A DNA stretch of 64,000 nucleotides from an uncultured Eggerthellaceae bacterium (lineage in GTDB: Bacteria > Actinomycetota > Coriobacteriia > Coriobacteriales > Eggerthellaceae), in contig CANSWY010000005.1 in NCBI GenBank assembly GCA_947650915.1, forward strand, positions 1-64,000, read 5' to 3'. Made by a program: the position numbers and the translations under genes. Position 1 is the stretch's first letter, and every line of letters begins with the position of its first letter. Below, one piece after another: positions 31,167 through 53,138 of this stretch. The notes under the pieces are model-generated. The model was not told where the DNA came from. It ran no database searches and saw nothing but the letters and a program-made list of their open reading frames with translations.

Positions 31167-31369
31167 AGCTGCTCCGATCTTGTCGCTTCATGAGCATCTG
31201 TGATGAGGTTAGGCCATGACGCAACGTAAAGGTCAAGCATGAATACAAAAGAAAATGCCATCCCATGCATGCTCCTGTCGCATACGTGAAGCCGGCGAAC
31301 GCCCGCAGACAGGCCACTCTCCGCTGGCCCAGCTGTCCGCTTCGTGATACGATCCAGCGATCAGAGATG

Positions 31370-31455
31370 AAAACACAGTCCCCGTCGGGTAGTCGTGGGC
31401 GTGCGGGGATCCCGCATCAGTAACCTGCCTCCTTGGTCGTCCCTTCTCTGCATGG
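31370..31455 (+). ncRNA. Candidate yjdF (azaaromatic) riboswitch
   Basis: The leader of the yjdF-type gene contains an AAAACACAGTCCCCG block, a paired stem GTCCCCG (31378-31384) / CGGGGAT (31404-31410) enclosing GGGTAGTCGTGGGC, and a downstream ATCAGTAACCTGCC segment, about 70 bp before the ribosome binding site. yjdF genes are known to be preceded by yjdF-motif RNAs that sense azaaromatic compounds. The match is by gene context and visible stem only. Confidence 0.55.
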
Positions 31456-31481
31456 TCATCTACATAAAGGAGGATTCCACC

Positions 31482-35547: not shown

Positions 35548-35775
35548 ATGTGCTTCAGACCAGCCGACGCGAATATGTCCGTGACGTGCCCATCATGCGG
35601 CAAAGAGATAAATGCGGTCCTTGGGATCGTCCCGAAGGAATGTCCCTTCTGCGGTGCCACGTCGGAGGACTTCGAGGGATCCTCTGACATCAAACCGCCG
35701 TCTGCTCCGGCCGCGCCTGGCGCACCGAAAGCTCCTGGTGCTCCCCAGCCTCCTGCGGCTCCCGGCAGATCGTGA
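35548..35775 (+). CDS. Small zinc-ribbon protein (MCF type), first of three
   Basis: 75 residues beginning MCFRPADAN, with a two-C-x2-C zinc ribbon (CPSCGKEINAV...CPFCGATSEDF) and a Pro/Ala-rich tail. GAGGAGATCTTCAG precedes the ATG at 35548. Its stop overlaps the MFS start (TGATG). Similar small Cys-rich proteins stand at 43074 and 52869, each next to an MFS and Mo-enzyme genes. Role unknown; a metal or cofactor-delivery function for these enzymes is a guess from context. Confidence 0.65.
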   Translation: MCFRPADANMSVTCPSCGKEINAVLGIVPKECPFCGATSEDFEGSSDIKPPSAPAAPGAPKAPGAPQPPAAPGRS

Positions 35776-37013
35776 TGGGAGGGGCGAAGGGCGCGGCGCC
35801 CGCCTATGGATGGGTGGTCACGATCGTCGTCTGGCTGACGGGGATCAGCATGCCGCTCAACATGCTCAAGGTGTCCATCTTGGCTCCGGTCATCATGGAA
35901 GCGTTCAGCGTGGATACGGATGCCATGAGCTGGGTCATCGCCACGTTCTACATCATGGGCATGATATTGGCGCTGCCTGGAGCGGTGGTGGTCGACCGGA
36001 TCGGCAAGAAGGCCACGTTCGTGCTCTCCCTCATCTGCGCGCTCATCGGTGGCGCTCTCGGATACATCGCGCAGGATATCGGGCTGTTCATCGTGAGCCG
36101 GATCATCGAGGGGATCGGCTTCGGCCTTGTCACCACAGCAGCCGTGCCAGCCATCTCTGCTTGGTTCGCGCCCGAGCATCGAGGGGTCCCGTTGGGCGTA
36201 TGGGCCATCAACGTGACCGCAGCATTCTTGATCGGGCCGAACCTCTTCTCGCAGATCTATGCGGCAACGGGGTCCTACCATGACGTCTGGGCGCTCAGCT
36301 TCGCGTTCGATGCCGTCGTCCTGGTAGCCGTCTTGGCGCTGTACCGAGAGCCGACGTTCACCTTCGATGACCATGGACAGAGGGTCGCGCTGGCAGATGG
36401 GAGCGCACGTGCCTCTGCTCCGAAGAAGGGCGTTCTCAAGCGCGTGCTGACCCAGCCTGCGGTCTTGCTCGTGGCGGCCATCTTCTTCTGCGAAGAGGTG
36501 CCGTTCTTGGGGATGTCGAACTTCCTGACCACCTACGCTGCTCAGGAGACCGACCTCACGCTCCCGGTCATGTCCACCATCATCTCGGTCATGGCGATCG
36601 TAGGGTGCGTGGTGAATCCTCTGAGCGGGATGATCTCGGACAAGATCAAGTCGAACAAGAAGCTGATGGTCATCAGCTGCATAGGTGGCACGGTGTATGC
36701 ATGGCTCGTGTTCCAAGCCACCACCGTCCAGGCGTTCATCCCCGTGATCCTCTGCAATGCCTTGGCCGGAGGGATCATCCCGACCATGGTGATGGCATCC
36801 ATACCGAAGGTGGTGAAGGACCCTGGGGACATAGCAGGTGCTACGGCGGTCGTCTTGTTCGCTCAGCAGCTCGCATCGTTCCTCGGGTCGAGGGTGCTGG
36901 GGCTCATCGTGGCGACCTATGGGGGCTTCGCTGTGGCTGGGCAGTTCTTCATGGCTCCGATATTCGCGCTTGGCTTGGTGATCTTGGTCCTTGGATGGAA
37001 GAAGCTCCCGTAA
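35775..37013 (+). CDS. MFS transporter 1, linked to Mo-enzyme 1
   Basis: 412 residues with twelve hydrophobic helices. The conserved MFS loop motif after helix 2 appears as VVDRIGKKATF, and helix 1 starts YGWVVTIVVWLTGISMPLNM. It is an inner-membrane uptake or exchange permease; its position directly before a molybdenum oxidoreductase suggests transport of that enzyme's substrate or product, as in catechol dehydroxylase clusters. The ATG overlaps the stop of the zinc-ribbon gene; a GTG one codon earlier is the alternative. Confidence 0.88.
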   Translation: MGGAKGAAPAYGWVVTIVVWLTGISMPLNMLKVSILAPVIMEAFSVDTDAMSWVIATFYIMGMILALPGAVVVDRIGKKATFVLSLICALIGGALGYIAQDIGLFIVSRIIEGIGFGLVTTAAVPAISAWFAPEHRGVPLGVWAINVTAAFLIGPNLFSQIYAATGSYHDVWALSFAFDAVVLVAVLALYREPTFTFDDHGQRVALADGSARASAPKKGVLKRVLTQPAVLLVAAIFFCEEVPFLGMSNFLTTYAAQETDLTLPVMSTIISVMAIVGCVVNPLSGMISDKIKSNKKLMVISCIGGTVYAWLVFQATTVQAFIPVILCNALAGGIIPTMVMASIPKVVKDPGDIAGATAVVLFAQQLASFLGSRVLGLIVATYGGFAVAGQFFMAPIFALGLVILVLGWKKLP

Positions 37014-37031
37014 CGATCGAAAGGAAAGGCA

Positions 37032-39311
37032 ATGGAAGAGAATGCGAAGTGGGTCGAGGATCTGGGCGATGGCGTCCATAAGGTCAGGACCTGCGTGTGG
37101 TCACCGCCCGGGGATCATCCCGTTGGGTGCGGCATCATCGTGACCGTGAAGGACAACAAGGTCATCAACGTGGAGGGCGATCCGACGCATCCCATCACCC
37201 AAGGGCGGCTGTGCCCGCGGTGCATAGCGATGGATGAGGCGCTCTACCACCCGGACCGCATCTTGCATCCCATGAAGCGCGACCGCGCTGACAGGGGCAA
37301 GGATGCGTGGGAGCAGATCAGCTGGGACGAGGCCCTTGACCTCATCGAATCCAAGGTGCGTCATTTCTGGGAGGTGGCGGGGCCTGAGAGCATCCTCACC
37401 TTCACGGGGACGGGCCGCGAGATAACCATGTATTCCGCGGCGTACTGCCATGCCATCTTCGGATCGCCCAACTACTGCATGGTGCTCAGTGGCGGCTCGT
37501 GCTATGGGCCTCGCTGCACCATCGCGAACTTCCAGCTGGGAGCGGGATACCCTGAGCTGGACTATGCAGCGTACTTCCCGGATCGCTACGAGGATCCACG
37601 CTGGGAGCTTCCTCAGTACATCCTGGTCTGGGGGAAGAACCCGGTGTATTCGAATCCTGATGGATTCTTCGGGCATGCGCTCATCGATCTCATGAAGATG
37701 GGCTCCAAGTTGATCGTGGTGGACCCGCAGCTCACTTGGATAGCTGCCCATGCCGAATACCATCTCCAGCTTCGCCCTGGCACCGATGCCGCGTTGGCTA
37801 TGGCCATGTGCAACGTGATCATCGAGGAGGACCTGTACGACCATGAGTTCGTGGAGAAGTGGGTCTATGGCTTCGATGAGTTCGCAGCATGTGTGGCCGA
37901 GTGGAGCCCTGAGCGCGCAGCGGAGGTCTGCTGGGTGGACGCTGATGTGCTGAGGGAGGCTGCTCGCGCGTTCGCGACGCATAGCCCCTCATCCGCGCTC
38001 TGGGGCCTCTCCATCGACACGGAGACCAATGGCGTTCAAGCGGGGCATACGTTCTTGGCCATCTGTGCGCTCACGGGCTATATGGATGTTCCTGGTGGCA
38101 TCACGCTTGCCCGGCCTTCCAGCTTCACGGGCAAATGGCGCTATGAGACCGTGAACTCTGTTCCAGATGAGGTGCGCGCGAAGCGCATCAAGGATCAGCA
38201 GGGGCGCTACAGCTGTTGGGATGCAGCGGGCCCTGGTCCTCTGCCCGATGTGACCCTGGACTGGCTCGAGATGGACGAGCCGCCCACTGATTTCAAGATG
38301 AGCTACTGGTTCGGGACCAATCCGCTCGCATGCATGTCCGTGCAGCCCATGCGTTGGGAAAAGGCGCTGGACAAGCTGGAATTCAACGTCGTGCAGGATG
38401 TGTTCATGAATCCGTCCATCATGCGTCTGTGCGACCTGGTGTTGCCGCTGTCCATGTCGGTGGAGCACGCGGGCATCGTGATGCCGCACTTCGGGCGCAA
38501 CACGCACTTCTTGGGCGCGATGAACAAAGCGGTCGAGCCTCTTGATAGCAAGAGCGACGTGGAGATCATGTTGGAGCTGGGACGGCGTTTGCGCCCGGAG
38601 CTCTGGCCTTGGGAGACGCCGGAACAGTTCTTCACCGATCAGCTGCATACCGCATACGATTGGGGCTTCAAGGAGCTTCAGGATGATGTGGTGTTCCAGC
38701 AGCCCTTCGAGTATCGCAAGTACGAGACAGGTGCCCTGCGTGCTGATGGGAAGCCCGGATTCGACACGCCCACGGGTCTGATAGAGCTCAAGGCGAGCGT
38801 CTATTCGGTGTTCGGCGAAAAGCCGCTGCCGTACTTCAAGGAGCCGGAGCTGAGCCCTTATAGCGATGCCATCTCCGATGAGGTCAAAGAGGAGTTCCCG
38901 CTCGTGCTCACCACTGGCGGCCGCCACATCTCCATGTTCCATTCCGAGCATCGGCAGATCCCCTCCATGCGCGCGCTGAACCCGTGGCCTCTGATCACGA
39001 TCCATCCTGAGACCGCTGCGGCCCATGGGATAGCAGAGGGGGACTGGGTGGCGATCGAGAACCCGCTCGGGCGCTGCATCCAGAAGGCATGCATCCGCCC
39101 TGTGGTGGACCCGCGCGTCGTCCATGCTCAGCACGCATGGTGGTATCCCGAACAGTCCGGCGAGGCGCCCAACCTGTTCGGCCTCTACAAGTCGAACATC
39201 AACAGCCTCATCCCGCATGAGAGCGTGGGCGTGACGGGGTATGGCGCTCCGTACAAGAACATCATCTGCAAGATCTACAAGGTGGACAGCCTTGACGCAT
39301 TCGAGGCCTAG
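37032..39311 (+). CDS. Molybdopterin oxidoreductase 1 (catechol-dehydroxylase-like)
   Basis: 759 residues of the bis-MGD DMSO reductase superfamily. The domain order is normal: N-terminal cluster region (CVWSPPGDHPVGC and GRLCPRC, Cys 21, 33, 61, 64), MGD-binding middle (LVWGKNPVYSNPDGFFGHAL), and C-terminal cap (VHAQHAWWYPEQ). Cys157 in SCYGPR stands where the Mo-ligating residue is expected. The first cluster cysteine of its paralogues (GCHPVGC) is Asp here (GDHPVGC), with an extra Cys eleven positions upstream, so the Fe-S site may be altered. No Tat signal is seen, so it should be cytoplasmic. Known relatives in Eggerthellaceae dehydroxylate catechols; the substrate is not deducible. Confidence 0.85.
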   Translation: MEENAKWVEDLGDGVHKVRTCVWSPPGDHPVGCGIIVTVKDNKVINVEGDPTHPITQGRLCPRCIAMDEALYHPDRILHPMKRDRADRGKDAWEQISWDEALDLIESKVRHFWEVAGPESILTFTGTGREITMYSAAYCHAIFGSPNYCMVLSGGSCYGPRCTIANFQLGAGYPELDYAAYFPDRYEDPRWELPQYILVWGKNPVYSNPDGFFGHALIDLMKMGSKLIVVDPQLTWIAAHAEYHLQLRPGTDAALAMAMCNVIIEEDLYDHEFVEKWVYGFDEFAACVAEWSPERAAEVCWVDADVLREAARAFATHSPSSALWGLSIDTETNGVQAGHTFLAICALTGYMDVPGGITLARPSSFTGKWRYETVNSVPDEVRAKRIKDQQGRYSCWDAAGPGPLPDVTLDWLEMDEPPTDFKMSYWFGTNPLACMSVQPMRWEKALDKLEFNVVQDVFMNPSIMRLCDLVLPLSMSVEHAGIVMPHFGRNTHFLGAMNKAVEPLDSKSDVEIMLELGRRLRPELWPWETPEQFFTDQLHTAYDWGFKELQDDVVFQQPFEYRKYETGALRADGKPGFDTPTGLIELKASVYSVFGEKPLPYFKEPELSPYSDAISDEVKEEFPLVLTTGGRHISMFHSEHRQIPSMRALNPWPLITIHPETAAAHGIAEGDWVAIENPLGRCIQKACIRPVVDPRVVHAQHAWWYPEQSGEAPNLFGLYKSNINSLIPHESVGVTGYGAPYKNIICKIYKVDSLDAFEA

Positions 39312-39327
39312 AAGGGAGGTGTGCCAA

Positions 39328-39666
39328 ATGGAGAAGCGAGCCATGCTCATCGACTACGGCTATTGCACCGGTTGCCATTCGTGTGAGGTGTCGTGTCGGA
39401 AGAAGAACGATCTGCGCCTTGACGAGTGGGGCATCAAGGTCAACGAGGTGGGGCCTCAGAAGTTCTCGAATGGCAAATGGGAGTGGGATTTCGTGCCCGT
39501 GCCGTCGAGTCTGTGCGACCTGTGCGAGGACCGGATAGCGGAGGGGAGCAAGCCCTTGTGCGAGCTGCATTGCCTTGCAGCGGTGATCCGGGTCGTGCCG
39601 GTGAGCGAGGTGTCCTCATGCCTTGAGTCCATGGATAAGGACAAGGTGGCGGTCTACCTTCCGTGA
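39328..39666 (+). CDS. 4Fe-4S ferredoxin-type partner 1
   Basis: 112 residues. YCTGCHSCEVSC gives one C-x2-C-x2-C-x3-C motif, and CDLC with CELHC later give a second set, so it probably carries two clusters. This is the small electron-transfer subunit that accompanies the Mo-enzyme 17 bp upstream. GGGAGGTGTGCCAA precedes the ATG at 39328. Its stop overlaps an alternative start of the next Mo-enzyme. Confidence 0.9.
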   Translation: MEKRAMLIDYGYCTGCHSCEVSCRKKNDLRLDEWGIKVNEVGPQKFSNGKWEWDFVPVPSSLCDLCEDRIAEGSKPLCELHCLAAVIRVVPVSEVSSCLESMDKDKVAVYLP

Positions 39667-39689
39667 TGGACGCAGTGAGAAGGAATCAG

Positions 39690-42119
39690 ATGAGCGAAGG
39701 ATGGAGGGGAGCGAAGATGGAGAAGGAGTATTCGGATTGGCATGACAATCCGACCATGCGCAGCTGGCACCCAGAGCGATTGAACGCCCGGAGCGAGTGC
39801 ACCATTTCGGACGTGAATGACCTCAACAAGCCCTGGCGCTTCGAAGAGGATGGCCTGACGGTCACGCGCACGAGCCCGTGGTCGCCGCCAGGATGCCACC
39901 CGGTCGGGTGCTCTTTGAAGCTCTACACTGACGAGGATGGGAAGCTCGTCAAGGTGGAAGGGGATGAGAACAACCCGGTGACGCAGGGGCGCTTGTGCGT
40001 TCGCTGCCTCACCTTGAAGGATTACATCTACAACCCGAGCCGCATCTTGCATCCCATGAAGCGAGACCCCAAGAAGCGCGGCGACGCGGATGCGTGGGAG
40101 GAGATCAGCTGGGATGAGGCGTTCGCTCTCATCAAGAGCGAATACGATCGCATCACGAAGGAGTACGGGCGCGAGTCCATCGTGTGCTTCGCGGGCACCG
40201 GACGTGAGGGCGGCACCATGGCGCCGTTCGGGAGCCGGATGCTCTGCACGCCGAACTATTGCTATTCGCAATCGGGGTACGCGTGCTACGTGCCCCGCAT
40301 GGCGGCTTCCTCGTATCTGCTCGGGGCGGCATACCCCGAGATAGACTATGCGGGAGGGCTGCCTGGGCGCTACGATGACCCTGAGTACGAGGTGCCTGAG
40401 TGCATCGTGATATGGGGCAAGGAGCCGCTGCCGTCGAATCCGGATGGGTTCTTCGGGCACTCGGTCATCGACCTCATGCGCCGCGGCACGCGTCTGATCG
40501 TGGTCGATCCGCGTGCGAATTGGCTCTCCACGCGCGCTGACTACCATTTGCAGCTCCGTCCTGGAACGGATGCGGCGCTCTCTCTTGCATGGATCAACGT
40601 GATCGCCAACGAAAAGCTCTACGATGCGGAGTTCGTCGAGTATTGGACCTACGGGTTCGATGAGTTGGTAGAGCGTGCCCAGGAGATGCCGCCTTCTCGC
40701 GCTGCTGAGATCACCGGGGTTCCTGAGGAGATCATCATCGAGTCAGCGCGCATGTATGCCAATGCGACCCCTGCGGCCATCGCGTGGGGCTTGGCGCTCG
40801 ACCAGAAGGCGAACGGCATGCAGGTCGGTCACTGCCTGATCGCGCTCATGGCCATCACGGGCAACATCGACGTGCCGGGCGGTCAGCGCATCGGCGATAA
40901 GACCATGGGCCTCAACGAGGCGGGCTTCGGGTTCGAAGAGGGCTTGGGGCAGGAGCTGATCGCGAAGATGATCGGCGCGAAAGAGTATCCGGCCTATTGC
41001 GGCCTGATCTTGAACTCACATGCCGATCTCACGCTGCGCGCCATGGAGACAGAGGATCCCTATCCCATCCGCATGGGCTTCTATGCGGGCAACAACCTGC
41101 TCTCATGCACCTCGGCGGAGCCGGAGCGCTGGATGAAAGCCATCAATGGCTCAATGGAGTTCGTCATCGCCTTCGACACCTTCATGACCCCCTCAGCCCA
41201 AGCGACCTGCGACGTGTTCCTCCCCCTGGCCACGATCGCCGAGCGCGAGGGCGTCGTTCAGACCCATTACGGTTCCTCCCCGGTGACCATGGGCTTCATG
41301 AACAAGGCCGTCACCCAAGGCGAGGGCATGTCCGACATGGAGCTCTGCTTCAATCTGGGCAAGGTGCTCAACCCGCATCTGTGGGACCAGTACGAGGATA
41401 TCCGCGACTTCATCGAGCATCTGCGCCTTGGCAAGAAGTACTGCTATGAGGATATCCGGAAAGAGGTCGTGCTCCAGCGCTACGTCGGGTATCGCAAGTA
41501 CGAGACGGGTCTGCTCCGTCGTGACGGGAAGCCGGGCTTCAACACCTCAACGGGGAGGGTGGAGCTCTGGTCCTATGCGTTCCACCGCTTCGGAGACGAT
41601 CCGCTGCCGTACTACATCGAGCCGCAATTCGGTCCGGAGTCATCACCTGAGCTCATGGAAGAGTATCCCTTCATCCTCACCAGCGGTGCGCGCACGTATG
41701 CCTTCTTCCATTCCGAGAACAGGCAGATACCCTATTGCCGCGAGCTGAATCCCGACCCGCTCCTGGAGATCAATCCCGAGGATGCCAAGCGCAAGGGCAT
41801 CGTGGATGGCAGCTGGGTGAAAGCGGTCAATCAGTTCGGGGAGTGCGTCATGAAGGCGAAGGTGTCGCCCATCGTCAAGGAGGGCGTCGTCCATGCGCAG
41901 CATGCGTGGTGGTTCCCCGAGCAGGATGGCAACGATCACGGCGGCGGTGCCTACGATACGTTCCGCTCCAATATCAATAATCTGGTTCCCAACTTCCATT
42001 TCGGCAAGCTCGGCTTCGGGGCTCCGTTCAAGTGCATGATCTGCGACGTGGTGCCCATCAGTGAGAGCTATGACACGGATATGGATGAGATCTGGGAGAA
42101 GTTCGGGAAGTTGGTGTAG
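39690..42119 (+). CDS. Molybdopterin oxidoreductase 2 (catechol-dehydroxylase-like)
   Basis: About 809 residues, a paralogue of enzymes 1 and 3. The N-terminal cluster motif is complete: WSPPGCHPVGC and GRLCVRC (Cys 69, 74, 103, 106 from this start). The probable Mo ligand is Cys199 in ACYVPR. MGD-binding segments (VIWGKEPLPSNPDGFFGHSV) and the C-terminal VHAQHAWWFPEQ are conserved. A 55-residue leader rich in charged residues precedes the cluster; there is no Tat motif. ATGs at 39666, 39690 and 39717 are possible starts; 39690 follows AGAAGGAATC and 39717 follows GGAGGGGAGC. It is followed by its own ferredoxin, so the operon carries two complete enzyme pairs. Confidence 0.87.
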   Translation: MSEGWRGAKMEKEYSDWHDNPTMRSWHPERLNARSECTISDVNDLNKPWRFEEDGLTVTRTSPWSPPGCHPVGCSLKLYTDEDGKLVKVEGDENNPVTQGRLCVRCLTLKDYIYNPSRILHPMKRDPKKRGDADAWEEISWDEAFALIKSEYDRITKEYGRESIVCFAGTGREGGTMAPFGSRMLCTPNYCYSQSGYACYVPRMAASSYLLGAAYPEIDYAGGLPGRYDDPEYEVPECIVIWGKEPLPSNPDGFFGHSVIDLMRRGTRLIVVDPRANWLSTRADYHLQLRPGTDAALSLAWINVIANEKLYDAEFVEYWTYGFDELVERAQEMPPSRAAEITGVPEEIIIESARMYANATPAAIAWGLALDQKANGMQVGHCLIALMAITGNIDVPGGQRIGDKTMGLNEAGFGFEEGLGQELIAKMIGAKEYPAYCGLILNSHADLTLRAMETEDPYPIRMGFYAGNNLLSCTSAEPERWMKAINGSMEFVIAFDTFMTPSAQATCDVFLPLATIAEREGVVQTHYGSSPVTMGFMNKAVTQGEGMSDMELCFNLGKVLNPHLWDQYEDIRDFIEHLRLGKKYCYEDIRKEVVLQRYVGYRKYETGLLRRDGKPGFNTSTGRVELWSYAFHRFGDDPLPYYIEPQFGPESSPELMEEYPFILTSGARTYAFFHSENRQIPYCRELNPDPLLEINPEDAKRKGIVDGSWVKAVNQFGECVMKAKVSPIVKEGVVHAQHAWWFPEQDGNDHGGGAYDTFRSNINNLVPNFHFGKLGFGAPFKCMICDVVPISESYDTDMDEIWEKFGKLV

Positions 42120-42121
42120 CT

Positions 42122-42619
42122 ATGACAGCATTTGGCCTGCTTATCGATTACGAATACTGCTCAGGATGCCAGTCGTGCGAGGTCTCCTGCAAGGAGGAGC
42201 ACGGATATCCGGTGGGCAAGTGGGGCATCCGGGTCATGGACGACGGTCCATGGGAGATTGAGCCGGGACACATGAACTGGAACAAGGTGCCCATCCCCAC
42301 TGACCTCTGCGACCTGTGCGCTGGGCGAACCGCCAAGGGGCGCGAGCCAGCATGCGTGCACCACTGCCTTGCCGATGTCATGAAGTATGGGCCTGTTGCA
42401 GAGCTGGCGGCATTCATGGAGGAGAAGCCAAAGCAAGTCCTCTTCGTCCCGCAGTACAAGCCCTATGAGGCGCGTGGGGCCTTCGTGTCGGCCAGGAAGG
42501 ATGATGCGAGCCGACGCAGGGCTGCGGCCATGGAGGTGGATGCGAACGCGCAGGTGGAGTTCGCGACGCACCGGGATGATTCTGACGTGAGGAACGTGGA
42601 AGAGCTCAGCGAGCAGTGA
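42122..42619 (+). CDS. 4Fe-4S ferredoxin-type partner 2
   Basis: 165 residues: a cluster-binding core like partner 1 (YCSGCQSCEVSC, CDLC, CVHHC) with an extra C-terminal tail of about 60 mostly charged residues (SARKDDASRRRAAAM...). It starts 2 bp after the stop of Mo-enzyme 2, so is translated with it. It should pass electrons to that enzyme; the tail may bind a protein partner. Confidence 0.9.
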   Translation: MTAFGLLIDYEYCSGCQSCEVSCKEEHGYPVGKWGIRVMDDGPWEIEPGHMNWNKVPIPTDLCDLCAGRTAKGREPACVHHCLADVMKYGPVAELAAFMEEKPKQVLFVPQYKPYEARGAFVSARKDDASRRRAAAMEVDANAQVEFATHRDDSDVRNVEELSEQ

Positions 42620-42631
42620 GGCGGCGATAGC

Positions 42632-43066
42632 ATGGAGCGCGAAGAGCGGATCGGAAGGGTGGTCAAGGCCCTCTACAAGGGAGGGCCGACCGGCGAGGAG
42701 CCTCTGGACGACCATTCCGCGGGAGAGCCAGAGGAGCTCGTGGTGGGCGTGGGGCAGCTGCCTCGCGGCATCGATGAGGCGCTGCTGGATATGGAAGCGG
42801 GCGAGGAGCGGACGATCATCATCCCCTGCGAGAAGGGCTTCGGTCCCCACGACCCCCAAGGCGTCCAAACGTATCCGCGCGCGGCCATCGAGGGCGGGGA
42901 GAAGCTGCAGCTGGGAGATGTGTTCCCGTGGACCAACCCCGCATCGGGACAGCCGATCCCCGTCAGGGTGGTCAAGGCAGACGACCAGCTCGTGACGATT
43001 GACTTCAATCACCCTTTCGCCGGCAAGGAGCTCACCTACTGGTTGAGATTGGTGTCTGTGGGATAG
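42632..43066 (+). CDS. SlyD-type FKBP peptidyl-prolyl isomerase
   Basis: 144 residues. The FKBP core with inserted-flap domain is recognisable from EELVVGVGQLPRGIDEALLD, MEAGEERTIIIPCEKGFGPHD and the end VTIDFNHPFAGKELTYWLRL (FDFNHPLAGK-type). These isomerases assist folding and, in SlyD, metal delivery; the His-rich SlyD tail is absent. Being inside the Mo-enzyme operon, it may help to mature or metallate these proteins, an inference. Confidence 0.85.
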   Translation: MEREERIGRVVKALYKGGPTGEEPLDDHSAGEPEELVVGVGQLPRGIDEALLDMEAGEERTIIIPCEKGFGPHDPQGVQTYPRAAIEGGEKLQLGDVFPWTNPASGQPIPVRVVKADDQLVTIDFNHPFAGKELTYWLRLVSVG

Positions 43067-43073
43067 GGCGGCC

Positions 43074-43328
43074 ATGTGCTTCTTCTGTGCAGGTTGCGGT
43101 GCATGTCCCCGAGCAGCTACGCAAGATGCTCCGCTTTGGGTGGCTGCAGAGGGGATGTGCCCCGCATGCGGGGCCGCGCTCGCCTCGGAGGCGGAAGCGC
43201 GCTGCGGATGCGGATGGGCAGCGCCCGCGCCAGCGGGAAGGGCACAGGCCCGATCGGATAAGGATGAGGCCCGGCTCTCTGATGAGGAGGGTGCAGGGCG
43301 CAAGATAGAGGAAAGGTCAGAGAGATGA
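43074..43328 (+). CDS. Small zinc-ribbon protein (MCF type), second of three
   Basis: 84 residues starting MCFFCAGCGACPRA, with a second Cys group CPACGAALASE and CGCGWA, followed by a charged tail. Like the protein at 35548 it begins with MCF and sits directly before an MFS gene, overlapping it by 4 bp (ATGA). Zinc binding is inferred from the Cys pattern; the function is unknown. Confidence 0.6.
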   Translation: MCFFCAGCGACPRAATQDAPLWVAAEGMCPACGAALASEAEARCGCGWAAPAPAGRAQARSDKDEARLSDEEGAGRKIEERSER

Positions 43329-44614
43329 CTGAGACCAATAAGGGAAGACTGCATTACGCATGGCTCATCTTCATAGGATGCTGCTTCGTCAATGCCGCAT
43401 CCATGGCGGCATCGATCAGCATCGTCGGGGTGTATCTGCTCCCCGTGTCATCGTCGATCGGGGTGGGTCCAGGCGACTGGATGCTCTGGATGACGGTGTG
43501 TTCCATCGTGTCGTGCATCGTGACGTCAATCTGGGGGCAGTTTCTCCAGACCAAGAACATCAATGTGGTGACATCCATCTCCGCGGCCGCGCTCGCCATC
43601 GCCGTGTTCGCGTTCTCCTTCGGCAATAGCGTGCAGTGGTTCTGGATCTGGGGTGGCGTGCTGGGCTTTGCCATGCCGTGCATCGCCACGCTGACGGTGC
43701 CCACCCTCATCGGCAACTGGTTCGGCAAGAAGTACAGCGGGAAGCTCCTGGGCATCGCAGCTGCCTTCACGGGCGTGGGGACCTTCTGTTGGGCACCGTT
43801 GTTCACCATGATCATCCAGAGCCTGGGATGGCAGACGGCCTATCAGCTGAACGCTGCGCTCATCGCCGTGTGCCTGCTCCCCTGGACGCTGTTCGTCTTC
43901 AAGTTCAAGCCAGAGGACAAGGGTCTCGAACCCTATGGCTATGACGCGGAGCTTGAGGCGCAGAGCGCGAACGCCATGAAGCTCGGCATGAGCCGCTCCC
44001 TGGCGCTCAAGACGGCTCCGTTCTGGATCATGGTGGTGGTCATCCTCTTCACGTCCATGGGCATGGGCTTCAACAGCAATCAGGTTGCCATCGCGACCGA
44101 GGCGATGAGCGGGTCGATGGACATGCAGGCTGCGGCCATGTTGGGCGCTTCCATGATATCTGTGGCGGCTGTGGGCAACATCTGCGGGAAGATCATCTTC
44201 GGGTTCATGCAGACGCGTGCTGGCTTGAAAGCCACGTTCATCGTGTTCATCGTGGCATTCTTGGTCGGCTTCGGACTGTGGGCATTCGTGCCGATATCCG
44301 CGGTGCTCCTGATCGGTGCGTTCCTGTTCGGCACTCATAATGCGCTCGTGTCCGTGGGATATCCGCTGCTCGTGCGCTCGTTGTACGGAAACAAGGATTA
44401 CTCGAAGATCTTCTCGAACCTCATGACCGTCAACGGGCTGATGGGCGGCATCAGCGGCACGATCATCAGCTTCGTCTATCAGATGCTCGGCTCCTACCAG
44501 GCAGCGCTCGTGGCTGCGATGGCCATCGTGGTGCTCATCGGCATCGGCGTTCTGGTGGCGTGCGGATTCATCGGGAAGATGAAATGGGACTCACCCGCAC
44601 CTGTTGAGAGCTGA
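43325..44614 (+). CDS. MFS transporter 2 (OFA/oxalate-formate-like layout)
   Basis: 429 residues with twelve helices. It begins LHYAWLIFIGCCFVNAASMA; the mid segment TLTVPTLIGNWFGKKYSGKL, with the NWFGKK loop, is typical of MFS monocarboxylate/OFA-type carriers. Likely substrate or product antiporter of the operon. A hairpin terminator candidate follows at 44645-44687, so this appears to be the last gene. Confidence 0.86.
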   Translation: MTETNKGRLHYAWLIFIGCCFVNAASMAASISIVGVYLLPVSSSIGVGPGDWMLWMTVCSIVSCIVTSIWGQFLQTKNINVVTSISAAALAIAVFAFSFGNSVQWFWIWGGVLGFAMPCIATLTVPTLIGNWFGKKYSGKLLGIAAAFTGVGTFCWAPLFTMIIQSLGWQTAYQLNAALIAVCLLPWTLFVFKFKPEDKGLEPYGYDAELEAQSANAMKLGMSRSLALKTAPFWIMVVVILFTSMGMGFNSNQVAIATEAMSGSMDMQAAAMLGASMISVAAVGNICGKIIFGFMQTRAGLKATFIVFIVAFLVGFGLWAFVPISAVLLIGAFLFGTHNALVSVGYPLLVRSLYGNKDYSKIFSNLMTVNGLMGGISGTIISFVYQMLGSYQAALVAAMAIVVLIGIGVLVACGFIGKMKWDSPAPVES

Positions 44615-44644: not shown

Positions 44645-44687
44645 GCGAGCGGGGAGGGCCAGGCGGCCTTGTCCGCTCGCTTCTTCT
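44645..44687 (+). terminator. Candidate terminator after MFS 2
   Basis: Perfect stem GCGAGCGG/CCGCTCGC with a further inner GC stem, followed by TTCTTCT rather than a pure T run. It would close the 35.5-44.6 kb transcript. Confidence 0.6.
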
Positions 44688-44797
44688 ATACTGAGGTTCG
44701 CATCGTCCCTTGAGGGCGTCTTTTTGCGAAGCCCTTCTTGGAGAGGGCGCATCTTGTCCTTGGAGGATGGCACCGATCGACAAGATTGGAGGAAAGC

Positions 44798-45739
44798 ATG
44801 GATCTGGAATTGCTGCGAGAGTTTCAAGTCTTCGCCGTTTCCCAGAATCTGAGCAAGGCTGCGAAGGTCCTGCATGTGACGCAGTCGTGCTTGAGCAAGC
44901 ACATTGCCGAGATAGAGCGCACTACCGGATTGAGCCTGCTCGACCATGGTCCCAAGAGCGTCTCGCTGACGCCGGTCGGCGAGTGCTTCTTGCGAGAGGT
45001 GTCGCCCATCGTCTCCTCCTATGACAATTGCCTCATCAAGTGCCGGAAGCTCCAGCAGCGTTATGACAACATGCTCAAGGTGCAGCTGCTCTTGGATGGC
45101 AATATCGTCAATGGGCTCCTCTTTCAGCTGCGCAATGAGTTCAAGATGCTGCATCCAGAGTGCGAGGTGATCTTCGAGAAGCTCATCGGGTACACGCCTG
45201 AGAGCGCCCTTCCGCTGCGGATCTTCGACGTGACGCTGGCGTGCCGTTGTGGCGATCTGCGAACGTACGAAGAGGAGTGCGCGCATGCGGGGATCCGCGT
45301 GCTGCCCTTGAAGAAGGATCCCATCATCGTGTGGCTGAGCAAGGAGAATCCGCTTGCGCAGGCCGAGCGCTTGACTTTGGACATGCTCGATTGCATCCCC
45401 ATCATGACCAGCGTCACAGATGCGTTCGACTACATACGCGAGGCTACTGAGACGCTGTTCGAATCTCATGGGATGGTGGCGTTCATGAAGCCGGTGCACT
45501 TCGATATCGCGTCTCCTGCTGCGTTCTTCCTGTCAGATTTCGATCGGCGCGCTGTGATGCTCACCTCGTCGGGCATGCTGGGGAACGCGGGCTTGAGCGA
45601 ACGGGATGACATCTGCTGGAAGCAGCTGGACGGGGGAGATGCCGTCATGACGGTCTGCATGTGCGCGCTCGTGGAGAACAGACGGGCGAATGAGTTCCTG
45701 GACTTCGCCGAGGTGAGCCTTGGGAATCATGGGGCCTGA
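44798..45739 (+). CDS. LysR-family transcriptional regulator
   Basis: 313 residues. The N-terminal winged HTH (MDLELLREFQVFAVSQNLSK, VLHVTQSCLSKHIAEIERTT, LTPVGECFL) is typical of LysR; the rest is a periplasmic-binding-like effector domain. GGAGGAAAGC precedes the ATG at 44798. It stands downstream of and co-directional with the Mo-enzyme operon, and probably senses its substrate. The operator was not located. Confidence 0.9.
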   Translation: MDLELLREFQVFAVSQNLSKAAKVLHVTQSCLSKHIAEIERTTGLSLLDHGPKSVSLTPVGECFLREVSPIVSSYDNCLIKCRKLQQRYDNMLKVQLLLDGNIVNGLLFQLRNEFKMLHPECEVIFEKLIGYTPESALPLRIFDVTLACRCGDLRTYEEECAHAGIRVLPLKKDPIIVWLSKENPLAQAERLTLDMLDCIPIMTSVTDAFDYIREATETLFESHGMVAFMKPVHFDIASPAAFFLSDFDRRAVMLTSSGMLGNAGLSERDDICWKQLDGGDAVMTVCMCALVENRRANEFLDFAEVSLGNHGA

Positions 45740-48677: not shown

Positions 48678-51083
48678 ATGGAGTACAACAACAAGCCCGA
48701 CTTGGAGCTGTACCCGAAGAAGTTGCATTGGAAAGAGGGGGATCTCACTGCCACCCGCACTACCATGTGGTCGGGGCCGGGCTGCCATGAGGGTTGCCAG
48801 GTCATCTTCTACACGGATGAGGACGGCAAGCTGGTCAAAGTGGAGGGGGACCCGAACAGTCCGTTCAACCAGGGACGTCTGTGCATGCGCTGCCTGGAGC
48901 TGCCGGAGCTGGTCAATCACGAGTCGCGCCTGAAATACCCCATGAAGCGCGCCCGCGATGAGCGCGGCCAGGACACCTGGGAGCGCGTGAGCTGGGACGA
49001 GGCCTACGACATCATCGAAGAGAACGTGCGGAAGTTCCAGAAGGAATCCGGCCCCGAATCCATCATCTCCATGATCGGCACGGGGCGCAACGTCTCCCAG
49101 GTCATCGCGCACAACCAGTATGCGAACTTCGGCGGCCCGGATCTCACGCTCTGCTTCCTGTCCGGTGACAGCTGCATGCTGCCCCGCACTGCGCTCTGCT
49201 ACGTGGTCATGGGCAACCAGTGGGTGGCGGACATGAGCCAGTTCCGCGAGAAGCGCTACGAAGAGGACGAGGATTGGGTGGTGCCGGAGTGCATCGTGCT
49301 GTGGGGCACGAACCCGGTGGTGTGCAACTCGGATGCGTTCTTGGGCCACTGGATCGTGGAGGCCATGAAGCGCGGCAGCGAACTGATCAGCGTCGATCCG
49401 CAGCTCACCTGGATCGGTGCGCGCGCCAAGTACTGGCTGCGCCTGCGTCCCGGCACGGACGCGGCGCTCGCGCTGGGCATGTTGAACGTCATCATCAACG
49501 AGGACCTGTACGACCATGAGTTCGTGGACAAGTGGTGCTACGGCTTCGACGCGCTCAAGGAACGCGTGCAGGAGTACCCGCCCGAGCGCGTGGCGGAGAT
49601 CTGCTGGGTGGACAAGGACACCCTCATCGAGGCGTCCCGTTTCTACGCGAAGGCGCATCCTTCCACCATCCAATGGGGCCTGGCCGTTGACATGTCGAAG
49701 ATCGGCACGCAGACGGCGCTCGCGATAGCGGATCTGGCCGGCATCACCGGCAACATCGACAACCCCGGCGGCAACATCCTGATCGACCAGGCCGGCGGCC
49801 TGGAGTTCGGCTACAACTCCGGCATCGAGTACCTCAAAGAGGGCATGGTGGAGAAGCGCCTGGGCAATTCGAAATACCCGCTCAAGAAGTATGGCTTCAC
49901 CGCCTCCTCTCAGTCCGACGCCATCCTGGACGCCATCGAGACGGGCAAGGACGAAAAGGGAGACCCGCGTCCGGTGCGCATGCTCTGGATCCAGTCATCC
50001 AACCCCATCACCAACATGGGCCAGGACGCGCCGCGCATCTACCGCGCCATGAAGAACGTGGATTTCATCTGCGTCATCGACATGTTCATGACGCCGTTCG
50101 CCAGCGCCTGCGCCGATCTGGTGCTGCCCTGCGCCATGTCGAACGAGCGCGATTGTGTGCGCGTGTGGTTCGACCCCATCCGCTCGCTCACGAAGACGGG
50201 CTCCTACTATGAGGCCAAAGAAGACGAGCAGATCATGATCGATCTGGGCCACCGTCTGGCGCCCGAGTCCTGGCCGGAGTGGGTGCAGACCTCGCGCGAC
50301 TACATGAACTGGCGCATGTCCACCGCGCCCGAGTGCCGCTACGACTCCATGGAGGAGCTGGAAGAGGCCGGCGGTTGGCACTACCATCCGTTCCGCTACT
50401 ACAAGCATGAGAAGGGCCTGCTGCGCCCGGACGGACAGCCCGGCTTCAACACGGTGACGGGCCTGTATGAGCTGGCGCCCACGCTCTTCGATGCGTGGGG
50501 CGAGGATGCGCTGCCCTTCTACGAGGAGCCGCCGTCAAGCCCCTATAGCACGCCGGCTCTGGCTGAGGAGTACCCGCTGGTGCTGACCACCGGCAAACGC
50601 TCCTTCGAGTTCTTCCACTCCGAATGGCGCCAAGCCGACACCACCTCCCGCGAACTGCACCCGGTGCCCTATTTCGACATCCATCCCGAAACGGCGGCGC
50701 TCTATGGCATCGTTGAGGGCCAGTGGGCGTGGATCGAGAACCAGATGGGCAAGTGCCGCCAGGTGGCGCGCTTCAATGAGACGCTGGATCCGCGCGTCAT
50801 CTCCACGGAGCACGGTTGGTGGTTCCCCGAGAAGGAATCGGCCGAACCGGAACTGTTCGGCGTGTTCGACTGCAATCCGAACAACTTGATCCCCATGGGG
50901 GAGAACGGGCCTTCCGGCTATGGCGCGCCCATCAAGTGCTCCATCGCGAAGGTCTATCCGGCCACGCCCGAGAACATGGCCGCTGAGAACCATCCCACCT
51001 ACCAGGTGACGCGCGGGAGCGGCTACACGCATGGCCCGTCGCACAAGACGGACACGCCCAGCTTCTACGACGGCATCCGCTAG
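48678..51083 (+). CDS. Molybdopterin oxidoreductase 3 (catechol-dehydroxylase-like)
   Basis: 801 residues. The cluster motif is WSGPGCHEGC with GRLCMRC (Cys 36, 40, 69, 72). The probable Mo ligand is Cys166 in SCMLPR. The MGD region has VLWGTNPVVCNSDAFLGHWI, and the C-terminal STEHGWWFPEK corresponds to HAQHAWW of the other two. No Tat signal. AAAGGAGCGGTGC precedes the ATG. It is followed by a ferredoxin and an MFS transporter, the same module as at 35.5-42.6 kb but in a different order (MFS last). Its codon use is more GC-rich than that of enzymes 1 and 2, suggesting separate histories. Confidence 0.87.
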   Translation: MEYNNKPDLELYPKKLHWKEGDLTATRTTMWSGPGCHEGCQVIFYTDEDGKLVKVEGDPNSPFNQGRLCMRCLELPELVNHESRLKYPMKRARDERGQDTWERVSWDEAYDIIEENVRKFQKESGPESIISMIGTGRNVSQVIAHNQYANFGGPDLTLCFLSGDSCMLPRTALCYVVMGNQWVADMSQFREKRYEEDEDWVVPECIVLWGTNPVVCNSDAFLGHWIVEAMKRGSELISVDPQLTWIGARAKYWLRLRPGTDAALALGMLNVIINEDLYDHEFVDKWCYGFDALKERVQEYPPERVAEICWVDKDTLIEASRFYAKAHPSTIQWGLAVDMSKIGTQTALAIADLAGITGNIDNPGGNILIDQAGGLEFGYNSGIEYLKEGMVEKRLGNSKYPLKKYGFTASSQSDAILDAIETGKDEKGDPRPVRMLWIQSSNPITNMGQDAPRIYRAMKNVDFICVIDMFMTPFASACADLVLPCAMSNERDCVRVWFDPIRSLTKTGSYYEAKEDEQIMIDLGHRLAPESWPEWVQTSRDYMNWRMSTAPECRYDSMEELEEAGGWHYHPFRYYKHEKGLLRPDGQPGFNTVTGLYELAPTLFDAWGEDALPFYEEPPSSPYSTPALAEEYPLVLTTGKRSFEFFHSEWRQADTTSRELHPVPYFDIHPETAALYGIVEGQWAWIENQMGKCRQVARFNETLDPRVISTEHGWWFPEKESAEPELFGVFDCNPNNLIPMGENGPSGYGAPIKCSIAKVYPATPENMAAENHPTYQVTRGSGYTHGPSHKTDTPSFYDGIR

Positions 51084-51110: not shown

Positions 51111-51464
51111 ATGACACGAGGCGAATACGGCCTGATGATCGATTACAAGTACTGCTCCGGGTGCCACGCCTGCGAGGTGGCGTGCAAGAAGGAGCACGAC
51201 ATGCCGAAGGGGGATTTCGGCATCCGCGTGCTGCAGCACGGGCCCCATCAGACCTCTGATGGGGTGTGGGAGTTCGACTACCTGCCGCTGCCCACGCATT
51301 TGTGCGACCTGTGCGCTGAGCGCACGGCGCAGGGCAAACTTCCCACTTGTGTCCATCACTGCCAAGCGGGCGTGATGGTCTACGGCACCACTGAGGAGCT
51401 GGCTGCCAAGGCGCGCAAGGCCGAGGCGGACACCACGGCCCAGATGGTCATCTTCCCCCGATAG
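51111..51464 (+). CDS. 4Fe-4S ferredoxin-type partner 3
   Basis: 117 residues. YCSGCHACEVAC plus CDLC and CVHHC give the same Cys pattern as partners 1 and 2, probably two clusters. It lies 27 bp after Mo-enzyme 3 and should be its electron donor. AGAGGAGGAATCAC precedes the ATG. Confidence 0.92.
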   Translation: MTRGEYGLMIDYKYCSGCHACEVACKKEHDMPKGDFGIRVLQHGPHQTSDGVWEFDYLPLPTHLCDLCAERTAQGKLPTCVHHCQAGVMVYGTTEELAAKARKAEADTTAQMVIFPR

Positions 51465-51474
51465 GATCGCACCC

Positions 51475-52791
51475 ATGCAAGAAGAGAGACTGCATCCTCG
51501 GCGCTGGGCCATCCTGGTGGGGATGACCTTCATCCTGGTGGCCATCCAATTCAGCGTCATCCTGCCTGGTGGCGGGGCCATCCTGGTCATGCAGCAGTAC
51601 GGCATCGAGCCCATGATGTTCTCCATGATCATGACCGCGCCGTACTTGACGGGCTTTCTGTTCGCCATCCCGGCGGGCGCTTTCGCTGACCGCATCGGAC
51701 TGAACAAGGTGCTGGTGGCGGGCTTCGTGCTGTGCCTCATCGGCGTGGCCATCCGCATCGCCTCCGGTTCTGATTTCACGCTGCTGATGGTGGGCACCAT
51801 CATCATGGGCTTCGCGCCCGCAGCGCTGAACGCGAACTCCGCGAAGCTTTTGCGCGCGTGGTTCCCGGGCAAGGCGAACTCGTTCGCCATGGGCGTCTAT
51901 ACGGCGGGCATGAGCTTCGGCGCGGCGTTGGCCCTGTACTACGGTTCGCACATCGCCACCATCAATGAGGGCTGGGCGTTCTCCACCGCCCTGGTGGCCA
52001 TCGGCATCGTCATCTGGCTGGCGCTCTACCGCGCGCATCCGGACGGTGAGGAGATCGACAAGGAGCCTATCGGCCAGTACTTGAGCGTGGTTCTCAAGAA
52101 CAAGGACGTCTGGGGCATCTCCATCTTCGCGTTCCTGGTGTTCGGCGCCATGAGCAATCCGAACTCCAGCTTCATGGTGGCTGCCATCACCACGCTGGCC
52201 GGGGGCGATCCCGGTGTCGCTGGCGAGGCGGGAGACCTGTCCACTCTGAACACGGTCATCGCGGCCACGCTGTCCATGATCTTGCCGGTGGTGTTCGTGG
52301 CGCGCTTCGAGCACATGCGCACGCCCACGGCCATCTGCTGCTTCGCCTGCGCCATCATCTACGGCGTGCTGTACTTCATCCCCTACGGCCCCATCACCTG
52401 GGTGCTGTACATCCTGCAAGCCGTTTTCTTCTGCTCGCTCATGCCCATCGTGAAGATGCTGCCGGCGCTCTTGCCCAGCGTCAAGCGCGAGCATCTGGGC
52501 GTCGTCGGCGGCGTGCAGGCCACGTTCCAGAACTTTGGGATGTTCCTGATCGCGTCGTATGTCCTGTCCCCCATCGTCATCGCGGTGACGGGCCAGACCG
52601 ATGGCCTTGTGTTCTATCAGGGCATCTACGTGGGCATCGCCATCCTGTCCGTGGCGTCGTTCGCCAGCATGTATCTCTTCGCGAACGTGCGCTCGAACGT
52701 GGCTGACAAGATCGCGGATGATCGTGCGGCCATGGAGGAGATCGCCGAGACGGATGCGGAAGGCATTTTGGAGGCCGAGCACATCGGCTAA
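51475..52791 (+). CDS. MFS transporter 3
   Basis: 438 residues, twelve helices. The loop after helix 2 reads AFADRIGLNKVL, an MFS G-x3-D-R-x-G-type motif, and helix 1 is AILVGMTFILVAIQFSVILP. It lies 10 bp after ferredoxin 3, so it belongs to the Mo-enzyme 3 transcript. A 12-bp perfect hairpin lies 9 bp after its stop. Confidence 0.88.
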   Translation: MQEERLHPRRWAILVGMTFILVAIQFSVILPGGGAILVMQQYGIEPMMFSMIMTAPYLTGFLFAIPAGAFADRIGLNKVLVAGFVLCLIGVAIRIASGSDFTLLMVGTIIMGFAPAALNANSAKLLRAWFPGKANSFAMGVYTAGMSFGAALALYYGSHIATINEGWAFSTALVAIGIVIWLALYRAHPDGEEIDKEPIGQYLSVVLKNKDVWGISIFAFLVFGAMSNPNSSFMVAAITTLAGGDPGVAGEAGDLSTLNTVIAATLSMILPVVFVARFEHMRTPTAICCFACAIIYGVLYFIPYGPITWVLYILQAVFFCSLMPIVKMLPALLPSVKREHLGVVGGVQATFQNFGMFLIASYVLSPIVIAVTGQTDGLVFYQGIYVGIAILSVASFASMYLFANVRSNVADKIADDRAAMEEIAETDAEGILEAEHIG

Positions 52792-52832: not shown

Positions 52833-52868
52833 TTGGTGGACATGCAGCGCGGAGGGAGGAAGCGCCAG

Positions 52869-53069
52869 GTGGGGACGTGTCACTACTGCTTCAATTGCGG
52901 TCGGTGCCGCGGCGAGACGCCGCGGGCCGTCTATGTCCGCACGTGCCCGGCCTGTCGCTTCAAGAACGAAGAGGGCGCGAGAGCGTGCGCTCAGTGCGGC
53001 GAATCCTTGTTCATGGACCCCGCGCGCGTCTTCGTGAAGCCGGAGCATCGGGAGCGCGGCGCGCGCTGA
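52869..53069 (+). CDS. Small zinc-ribbon protein, third of three
   Basis: 66 residues from the GTG at 52869. The sequence holds CHYCFNCGRC, then CPACRFKNEEGARACAQCG, eight Cys in four pairs, as in two zinc ribbons. GGAGGGAGGAAGC lies about 10 bp before the GTG; ATG 52842 and GTG 52833 are alternatives but fall on or next to the hairpin. Like the other two small Cys-rich proteins it accompanies an MFS and Mo-enzyme module. Confidence 0.6.
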   Translation: MGTCHYCFNCGRCRGETPRAVYVRTCPACRFKNEEGARACAQCGESLFMDPARVFVKPEHRERGAR

Positions 53070-53138
53070 TCTTGATGCTCGTCATCTGAGAAGAGGAGGG
53101 GCCATCAGAGGTCCCTCATCATGAGAGAAGGAGCGACC

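Follow-up and report, generated by a model that had tools for sequence, protein, structure and literature searches.

A specialised SlyD-type FKBP is inherited with one clade of molybdoenzymes in Coriobacteriia, mostly beside a cysteine-rich protein

In Coriobacteriia, the genes of one clade of molybdoenzymes are inherited together with those for a ferredoxin, a specialised FKBP and, for the most part, a small cysteine-rich (Cys-rich) protein. The case described here is an operon of an uncultured Eggerthellaceae bacterium (assembly GCA_947650915.1, contig CANSWY010000005.1), which lies in a 64,000-nucleotide stretch of DNA that we call the window. It holds two molybdoenzyme-ferredoxin pairs, Mo1-Fd1 and Mo2-Fd2, and the FKBP and Cys-rich genes follow the second. 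The co-inheritance of Mo2, Fd2, the FKBP and mostly the Cys-rich gene is no proof of direct interaction. What might the operon do? The model towards which we lean, with modest confidence in it as a whole, comprises import of a compound, two dehydroxylating molybdoenzyme-ferredoxin pairs, and maturation of Mo2-Fd2 by the FKBP and the Cys-rich protein.

Inspection of open reading frames and Pfam searches place nine tightly packed genes on the + strand between positions 35548 and 44614, in the order ZnR1, MFS1, Mo1, Fd1, Mo2, Fd2, FKBP, Cys-rich, MFS2. Neighbours either overlap by 4 nt (ZnR1 with MFS1, Cys-rich with MFS2) or are separated by 2-50 nt, a spacing that suggests a single transcript. 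Because a gap of ~180 nt with terminator-like hairpins (44662-44677 and 44704-44718, from a scan whose yield was not above chance) separates MFS2 from the LysR gene, the latter is probably a separate unit and a candidate regulator. The original prediction was of a ten-gene operon; its genes and order hold, but the count is nine, the tenth being at best the separate LysR unit. The features are as follows.

35548..35775, + strand: ZnR1, a small zinc-ribbon-like protein of the MCFRP family with a Pro/Ala/Gly-rich tail (sequence; homologues beside molybdoenzyme genes)
35772..37013, + strand: MFS1 transporter (PF07690, E 1e-40)
37032..39311, + strand: Mo1, bis-MGD molybdoenzyme of 759 aa, cytoplasmic type (PF00384, PF01568, PF04879; 2E7Z; trees)
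39328..39666, + strand: Fd1, 112 aa, two 4Fe-4S motifs, partner of Mo1 (motifs; gene position)
about 39717..42119, + strand: Mo2, bis-MGD molybdoenzyme of 800 aa, FKBP-linked clade (Pfam; 2E7Z; tree)
42122..42619, + strand: Fd2, 165 aa, two 4Fe-4S motifs, partner of Mo2 (motifs; gene position)
42632..43066, + strand: specialised SlyD-type FKBP, 144 aa, without a His/Cys tail (PF00254; fold; profile)
43074..43328, + strand: Cys-rich protein, N-terminal M-C-x2-C-x2-C-x2-C and a zinc-ribbon-like C-x2-C ... C pair (family alignment)
43325..44614, + strand: MFS2 transporter (PF07690, E 6e-24)
44798..45739, + strand: LysR-type regulator (PF00126; ~180 nt beyond MFS2)

Pfam matches above cut-off cover Mo1 and Mo2 (PF04879, PF00384 and PF01568, which assign both to the bis-MGD, or DMSO reductase, family), both MFS transporters, the FKBP (FKBP_C, PF00254) and LysR. 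An SD-like sequence decided the choice of the Mo2 start, with a GTG in the same frame at 39663 as a possible alternative. In Fd1 and Fd2 the 4Fe-4S models score below curated cut-offs, and each protein has eight motif cysteines; those of Fd1 form CxxCxxCxxxC and CxxC..CxxxC, with weak, sub-cut-off matches to DmsB/Fer4. Both expected molybdoenzyme-ferredoxin pairs are thus present. Neither ZnR1 nor the Cys-rich protein matches a Pfam or NCBIfam family above cut-off; both of these short genes are backed by homologues at the equivalent gene position in many genomes. The source genome, of 1.98 Mb, contains about two dozen PF00384 matches.

The best PDB match of both molybdoenzymes is acetylene hydratase (2E7Z; E 7e-67 for Mo1 and 1e-73 for Mo2), ahead of every other solved chain by many orders of magnitude. 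Kinship with acetylene hydratase is a stated hallmark of catechol dehydroxylases (PMC7028382). In our main tree (FastTree, 118 rows, with uneven sampling of loci), Mo1 and Mo2 fall in the same 116-row group (support 100) as the catechol dehydroxylases Dodh and (+)-Eldh1/2. Within this group both lie in a 68-row half (support 100), in separate sub-clades and with 45% identity to each other, whereas Dodh, Eldh1/2 and the candidate enzymes of the ellagic acid metabolism (eam) cluster lie in the other half (support 81). Among the characterised enzymes that could be located in the fetched genomes, none is placed in the half that holds Mo1 and Mo2. Dodh was located through exact matches to both published qPCR primers (locus L167), (+)-Eldh1/2 as an adjacent pair with 73.8% identity in genome G067 (the published value is 74%), and the eam candidates through an adjacent amidohydrolase gene; Gp Hcdh, Gs Vadh, (-)-Eddh and Eadh3 were not located among the fetched genomes.

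Two identities were rejected. Models of the arsenate and tetrathionate reductases ArrA and TtrA reach 48-82 bits where 1600-1750 are required, which places Mo1 and Mo2 outside these subfamilies and leaves the original reading standing on this point; the remaining curated models, too, score far too low. Nor is this an eam cluster: the operon has no PF04909 gene, and L121, L125 and L150, the candidate Eadh loci, fall on the Dodh and Eldh1/2 side of the tree. The resemblance to Eggerthella lenta catechol dehydroxylases that was originally proposed stands as far as a catechol dehydroxylase-like group is concerned, but the closest kin are the cytoplasmic two-subunit enzymes of the Gordonibacter type and not the Tat-exported three-subunit ones. 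Mo1 and Mo2 have N-termini without a Tat motif and a small 4Fe-4S partner each; a twin-arginine signal, a larger catalytic subunit (759 and 800 aa here) and a membrane anchor gene, all Eggerthella-type traits, are absent from the operon. Judged by sequence, Mo1 and Mo2 are members of the known group or very close to it, and it is only their tree neighbourhood that suggests catechol chemistry.

Could they do something else? Mo1 and Mo2 might catalyse another reaction of the acetylene hydratase or transhydroxylase kind, or reduce an acceptor that is not a catechol. The closest solved structure is after all that of a hydratase, their half of the tree is the one without a placed characterised enzyme, and an Fe-S motif of Mo1 is altered. 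The ferredoxin subunit and MFS setting are nevertheless those of Dodh-type enzymes, the sister half contains Dodh and Eldh1/2, and the cysteine aligned with the one near residue 141 of acetylene hydratase, which we take to be a metal ligand, is kept. We regard a different chemistry as quite improbable, and dehydroxylation remains our preferred reading.

The central evidence concerns what follows Mo2. Since the loci in the tree were partly chosen through FKBP matches, we counted neighbours in a search of 138 genomes with Mo2 only. This search returned 24 genes of at least 61% identity, counting that of the window. Two are cut off where their contigs stop, and in all 22 evaluable cases a ferredoxin gene and then an FKBP gene come after the Mo2 relative. 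In the 118-row tree the Mo2 clade (21 rows, support 100) shows the same, every row being followed by a ferredoxin of the Fd2 type and an FKBP. The Mo-Fd-FKBP order is repeated across the fetched neighbourhoods and also occurs in families f4, f6 and f11. It holds for the outlying strong FKBP matches in other families (G302 and G351), and a weaker match in G156 is arranged likewise.

The FKBP of the cassette is itself distinct. Relatives beside molybdoenzyme genes are mostly 42-53% identical to it, compared with about 35-40% for ordinary FKBPs. When the class (296 genomes) was searched with a profile built from the specialised type, strong matches scored ~170-235 bits and most ordinary FKBPs ~100-115, with a few values in between. 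A scan of the named genomes with the FKBP profile found mostly ordinary SlyD proteins and was set aside. The molybdoenzyme and FKBP trees are largely congruent, the same main clades being recovered in both, and the two distance matrices are correlated (Mantel r 0.85, 0/2000 permutations). There are exceptions: one specialised FKBP (L062, contig C29 of G037, a genome of the same family as the source) has no molybdoenzyme gene nearby, and several relatives on the Mo2 side, accompanied by FKBPs of other types, make the boundary of the rule less sharp.

The Cys-rich gene comes after the FKBP gene, usually within about 15 nt. Genome-wide in the 138 genomes, each of the 22 strong matches to its family lies directly 3' of a specialised FKBP. 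Seven to eight cysteines are conserved in the family alignment, and 15 members had no Pfam or NCBIfam match. In one metagenome-assembled genome the FKBP and the Cys-rich protein share a single reading frame, possibly through a single-base error. Four triads with a specialised FKBP (L064, L283, L284, L285) have no detected Cys-rich gene from this family directly after it. A structure model of the Cys-rich protein reached a pLDDT of 54 and was not used. Elsewhere in the window, a short MC-type Cys-rich reading frame (52833-53069) stands between the set formed by a third molybdoenzyme gene (Mo3, see below) with its Fd and MFS genes and an enoate-reductase-like gene at 53121.

By sequence and by predicted fold (AF2, pLDDT 92), the operon FKBP has an FKBP fold with an insert-in-flap domain, and its best PDB match on both counts is SlyD of Thermus thermophilus. 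This assignment predicts prolyl isomerase and chaperone activity. The protein ends after the FKBP domain, has one cysteine and lacks the His/Cys-rich C-terminal tail of the E. coli type, a metal-binding tail that in E. coli SlyD serves hydrogenase maturation (PMC7055735). Because the FKBP is SlyD-like yet tailless and the gene for a Cys-rich protein is its neighbour instead, we propose a split SlyD-like maturation pair for Mo2-Fd2.

We infer this maturation role as one part of a model for the whole operon. MFS1 and MFS2 would import an aromatic, probably catechol-like compound, from which Mo1-Fd1 and Mo2-Fd2 would each, most likely, remove an aromatic hydroxyl reductively. Folding or cofactor loading of Mo2-Fd2 would depend on the dedicated FKBP and the Cys-rich protein: the FKBP may hold the unloaded chain while the Cys-rich protein, presumably binding metal or Fe-S, supplies or guards the metal or cluster. 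Hydrogenase maturation by E. coli SlyD would be the parallel, except that here the metal-binding part would be encoded by a gene of its own instead of forming a tail. Only tentatively, and with rather less than even confidence, do we suggest that such a split factor is required for one cytoplasmic, aromatic-reducing molybdoenzyme clade of Coriobacteriia and has not been described before. Two-subunit enzymes do not generally need an FKBP, since recombinant (+)-Eldh1/2 and others retained activity on transfer to another species, and an FKBP was not reported for them; the transferable enzymes that are placed in our tree lie outside the FKBP clade.

Alternatively, the FKBP and Cys-rich protein may protect or regulate, for example by sensing redox state or metal as a pair, or as a stress chaperone that has travelled with the operon. 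No function is known for the Cys-rich family, whose structure model is poor, one FKBP is an orphan (L062), and related small MC-type proteins also follow ferredoxin genes where there is no FKBP. This reading sits badly with the fixed position of the FKBP after the ferredoxin and the congruence of its phylogeny with that of Mo2, and the source genome has at least three ordinary FKBP genes elsewhere for general duty. We consider it unlikely, and prefer maturation.

The Mo1 side is different. In the fetched loci Mo1-clade genes are also followed directly by a ferredoxin gene, but no FKBP comes after it; often a ZnR1-like MCFRP protein adjoins instead. ZnR1 homologues adjoin Mo1-clade or other molybdoenzyme genes at L118, L119, L120, L127, L129, L136, L138, L142, L143, L153 and more. 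MCFRP zinc ribbons, some with Pro/Gly/Ala-rich tails, recur beside molybdoenzyme operons (for example L099, L118, L142 and L156). Mo1 has Asp in place of one cysteine of an Fe-S motif (WSPPGDHPVGC). The same Asp occurs in about a dozen relatives of Mo1 (L104, L119, L128, L129, L132-L135, L138, L139 and L140), always with an upstream cysteine (RTC or RSC); at L105, L143, L155 and L158 the motif cysteine is wholly lost. The original reading took a dedicated FKBP and small Cys-rich proteins for maturation factors. Gene order, congruent trees and the tie between the Cys-rich gene and the FKBP argue for dedication, but to Mo2 only; the zinc ribbon goes with the Mo1 clade and other molybdoenzymes.

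Do the two pairs serve one pathway? Possibly they act at two positions of a single compound. Eadh1/2 and (+)-Eldh1/2 are pairs whose members work one after the other, or at two sites of the same molecule, and this analogy makes sequential action plausible; the data do not require it, because most FKBP cassettes elsewhere have no directly adjacent second pair. Mo1 and Mo2 may instead be independent enzymes with different substrates, encoded in two recently joined modules with a transporter each (ZnR-MFS-Mo1-Fd1 and Mo2-Fd2-FKBP-Cys-rich-MFS2). Their 45% identity and different clades fit such a history, as does the weak likeness of MFS1 and MFS2 (about 24% local identity); each module occurs elsewhere without the other, and the Mo1-Mo2 combination is found at no other fetched locus. 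Against it stand the tight spacing, the behaviour of the known pairs of this group, and the recurrence in several genera of MoA-FdA before MoB-FdB-FKBP with different MoA types. We give independence a serious but lesser chance, somewhat short of even, and see action on one compound as plausible. An MFS transporter 33-37% similar to MFS1 is found near several Mo2-type cassettes.

Two other features of the window bear mention. A third molybdoenzyme gene (Mo3, 48678-51083), with a ferredoxin gene at 51111 and an MFS gene at 51475, shares 81-86% identity with G068 and G085 genes and fell near (+)-Eldh1/2 in a first tree; Mo3 may be the (-)-Eddh orthologue. A yjdF (azaaromatic) riboswitch lies at 31357-31460, where a DUF2992/YjdF-like gene begins.

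Many gut Coriobacteriia carry dozens of uncharacterised enzymes of the Gordonibacter-type kind, and obtaining active protein from standard hosts is a reported bottleneck. If our proposal is true, co-expression of the FKBP and its Cys-rich partner could open up a branch of orphan molybdoenzymes, and the FKBP would join the few chaperones known for molybdoenzymes (TorD/NarJ type, XdhC and FdhD). In the open-licence literature, we found no relevant paper linking FKBP, SlyD, peptidyl-prolyl or zinc ribbon with molybdenum dehydroxylases, and the catechol dehydroxylase papers searched for FKBP or prolyl isomerase mention neither. The pairing of FKBP and Cys-rich protein with a molybdoenzyme clade is thus the new part, no description of it having been found there.

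How does the operon compare with known systems? The Gordonibacter-type enzymes (Dodh, Gp Hcdh, Gs Vadh, (+)-Eldh1/2, (-)-Eddh and Eadh1-3) share with Mo1 and Mo2 a length of about 760-800 aa, the lack of a Tat signal, a small 4Fe-4S partner, MFS neighbours, kinship with acetylene hydratase and a place in the same large clade. Two-enzyme operons are known among them (Eadh1/2 and (+)-Eldh1/2). The regulator near this operon is LysR and not LuxR, though Gs Vadh also has a LysR; the papers searched for an FKBP and a Cys-rich partner mention neither. Like the eam cluster (Eadh1/Eadh2), the operon encodes two molybdoenzymes, 4Fe-4S proteins and MFS carriers; unlike it, it has no Eah-type amidohydrolase, and the tree puts the candidate Eadh enzymes in the half opposite to Mo1 and Mo2. 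One further locus (L109, G000:C9), where Mo, Fd and MFS genes precede an Amidohydro_2 gene at about 8601, resembles part of the eam arrangement. TorD-like DadhF and XdhC are, like the operon FKBP, dedicated accessory proteins encoded with molybdoenzymes, but they belong to unrelated families and serve Tat-exported Eggerthella-type enzymes and xanthine-oxidase-type enzymes, respectively. SlyD of T. thermophilus has the same fold with the insert-in-flap domain and is 36-37% identical over the model. Relative to the SlyD proteins of T. thermophilus, E. coli and Helicobacter pylori, the first loop of the FKBP domain is changed (YRGGxxGE...DD), and the operon FKBP differs from SlyD in having no metal-binding tail, an adjoining Cys-rich gene and a link to a molybdoenzyme.
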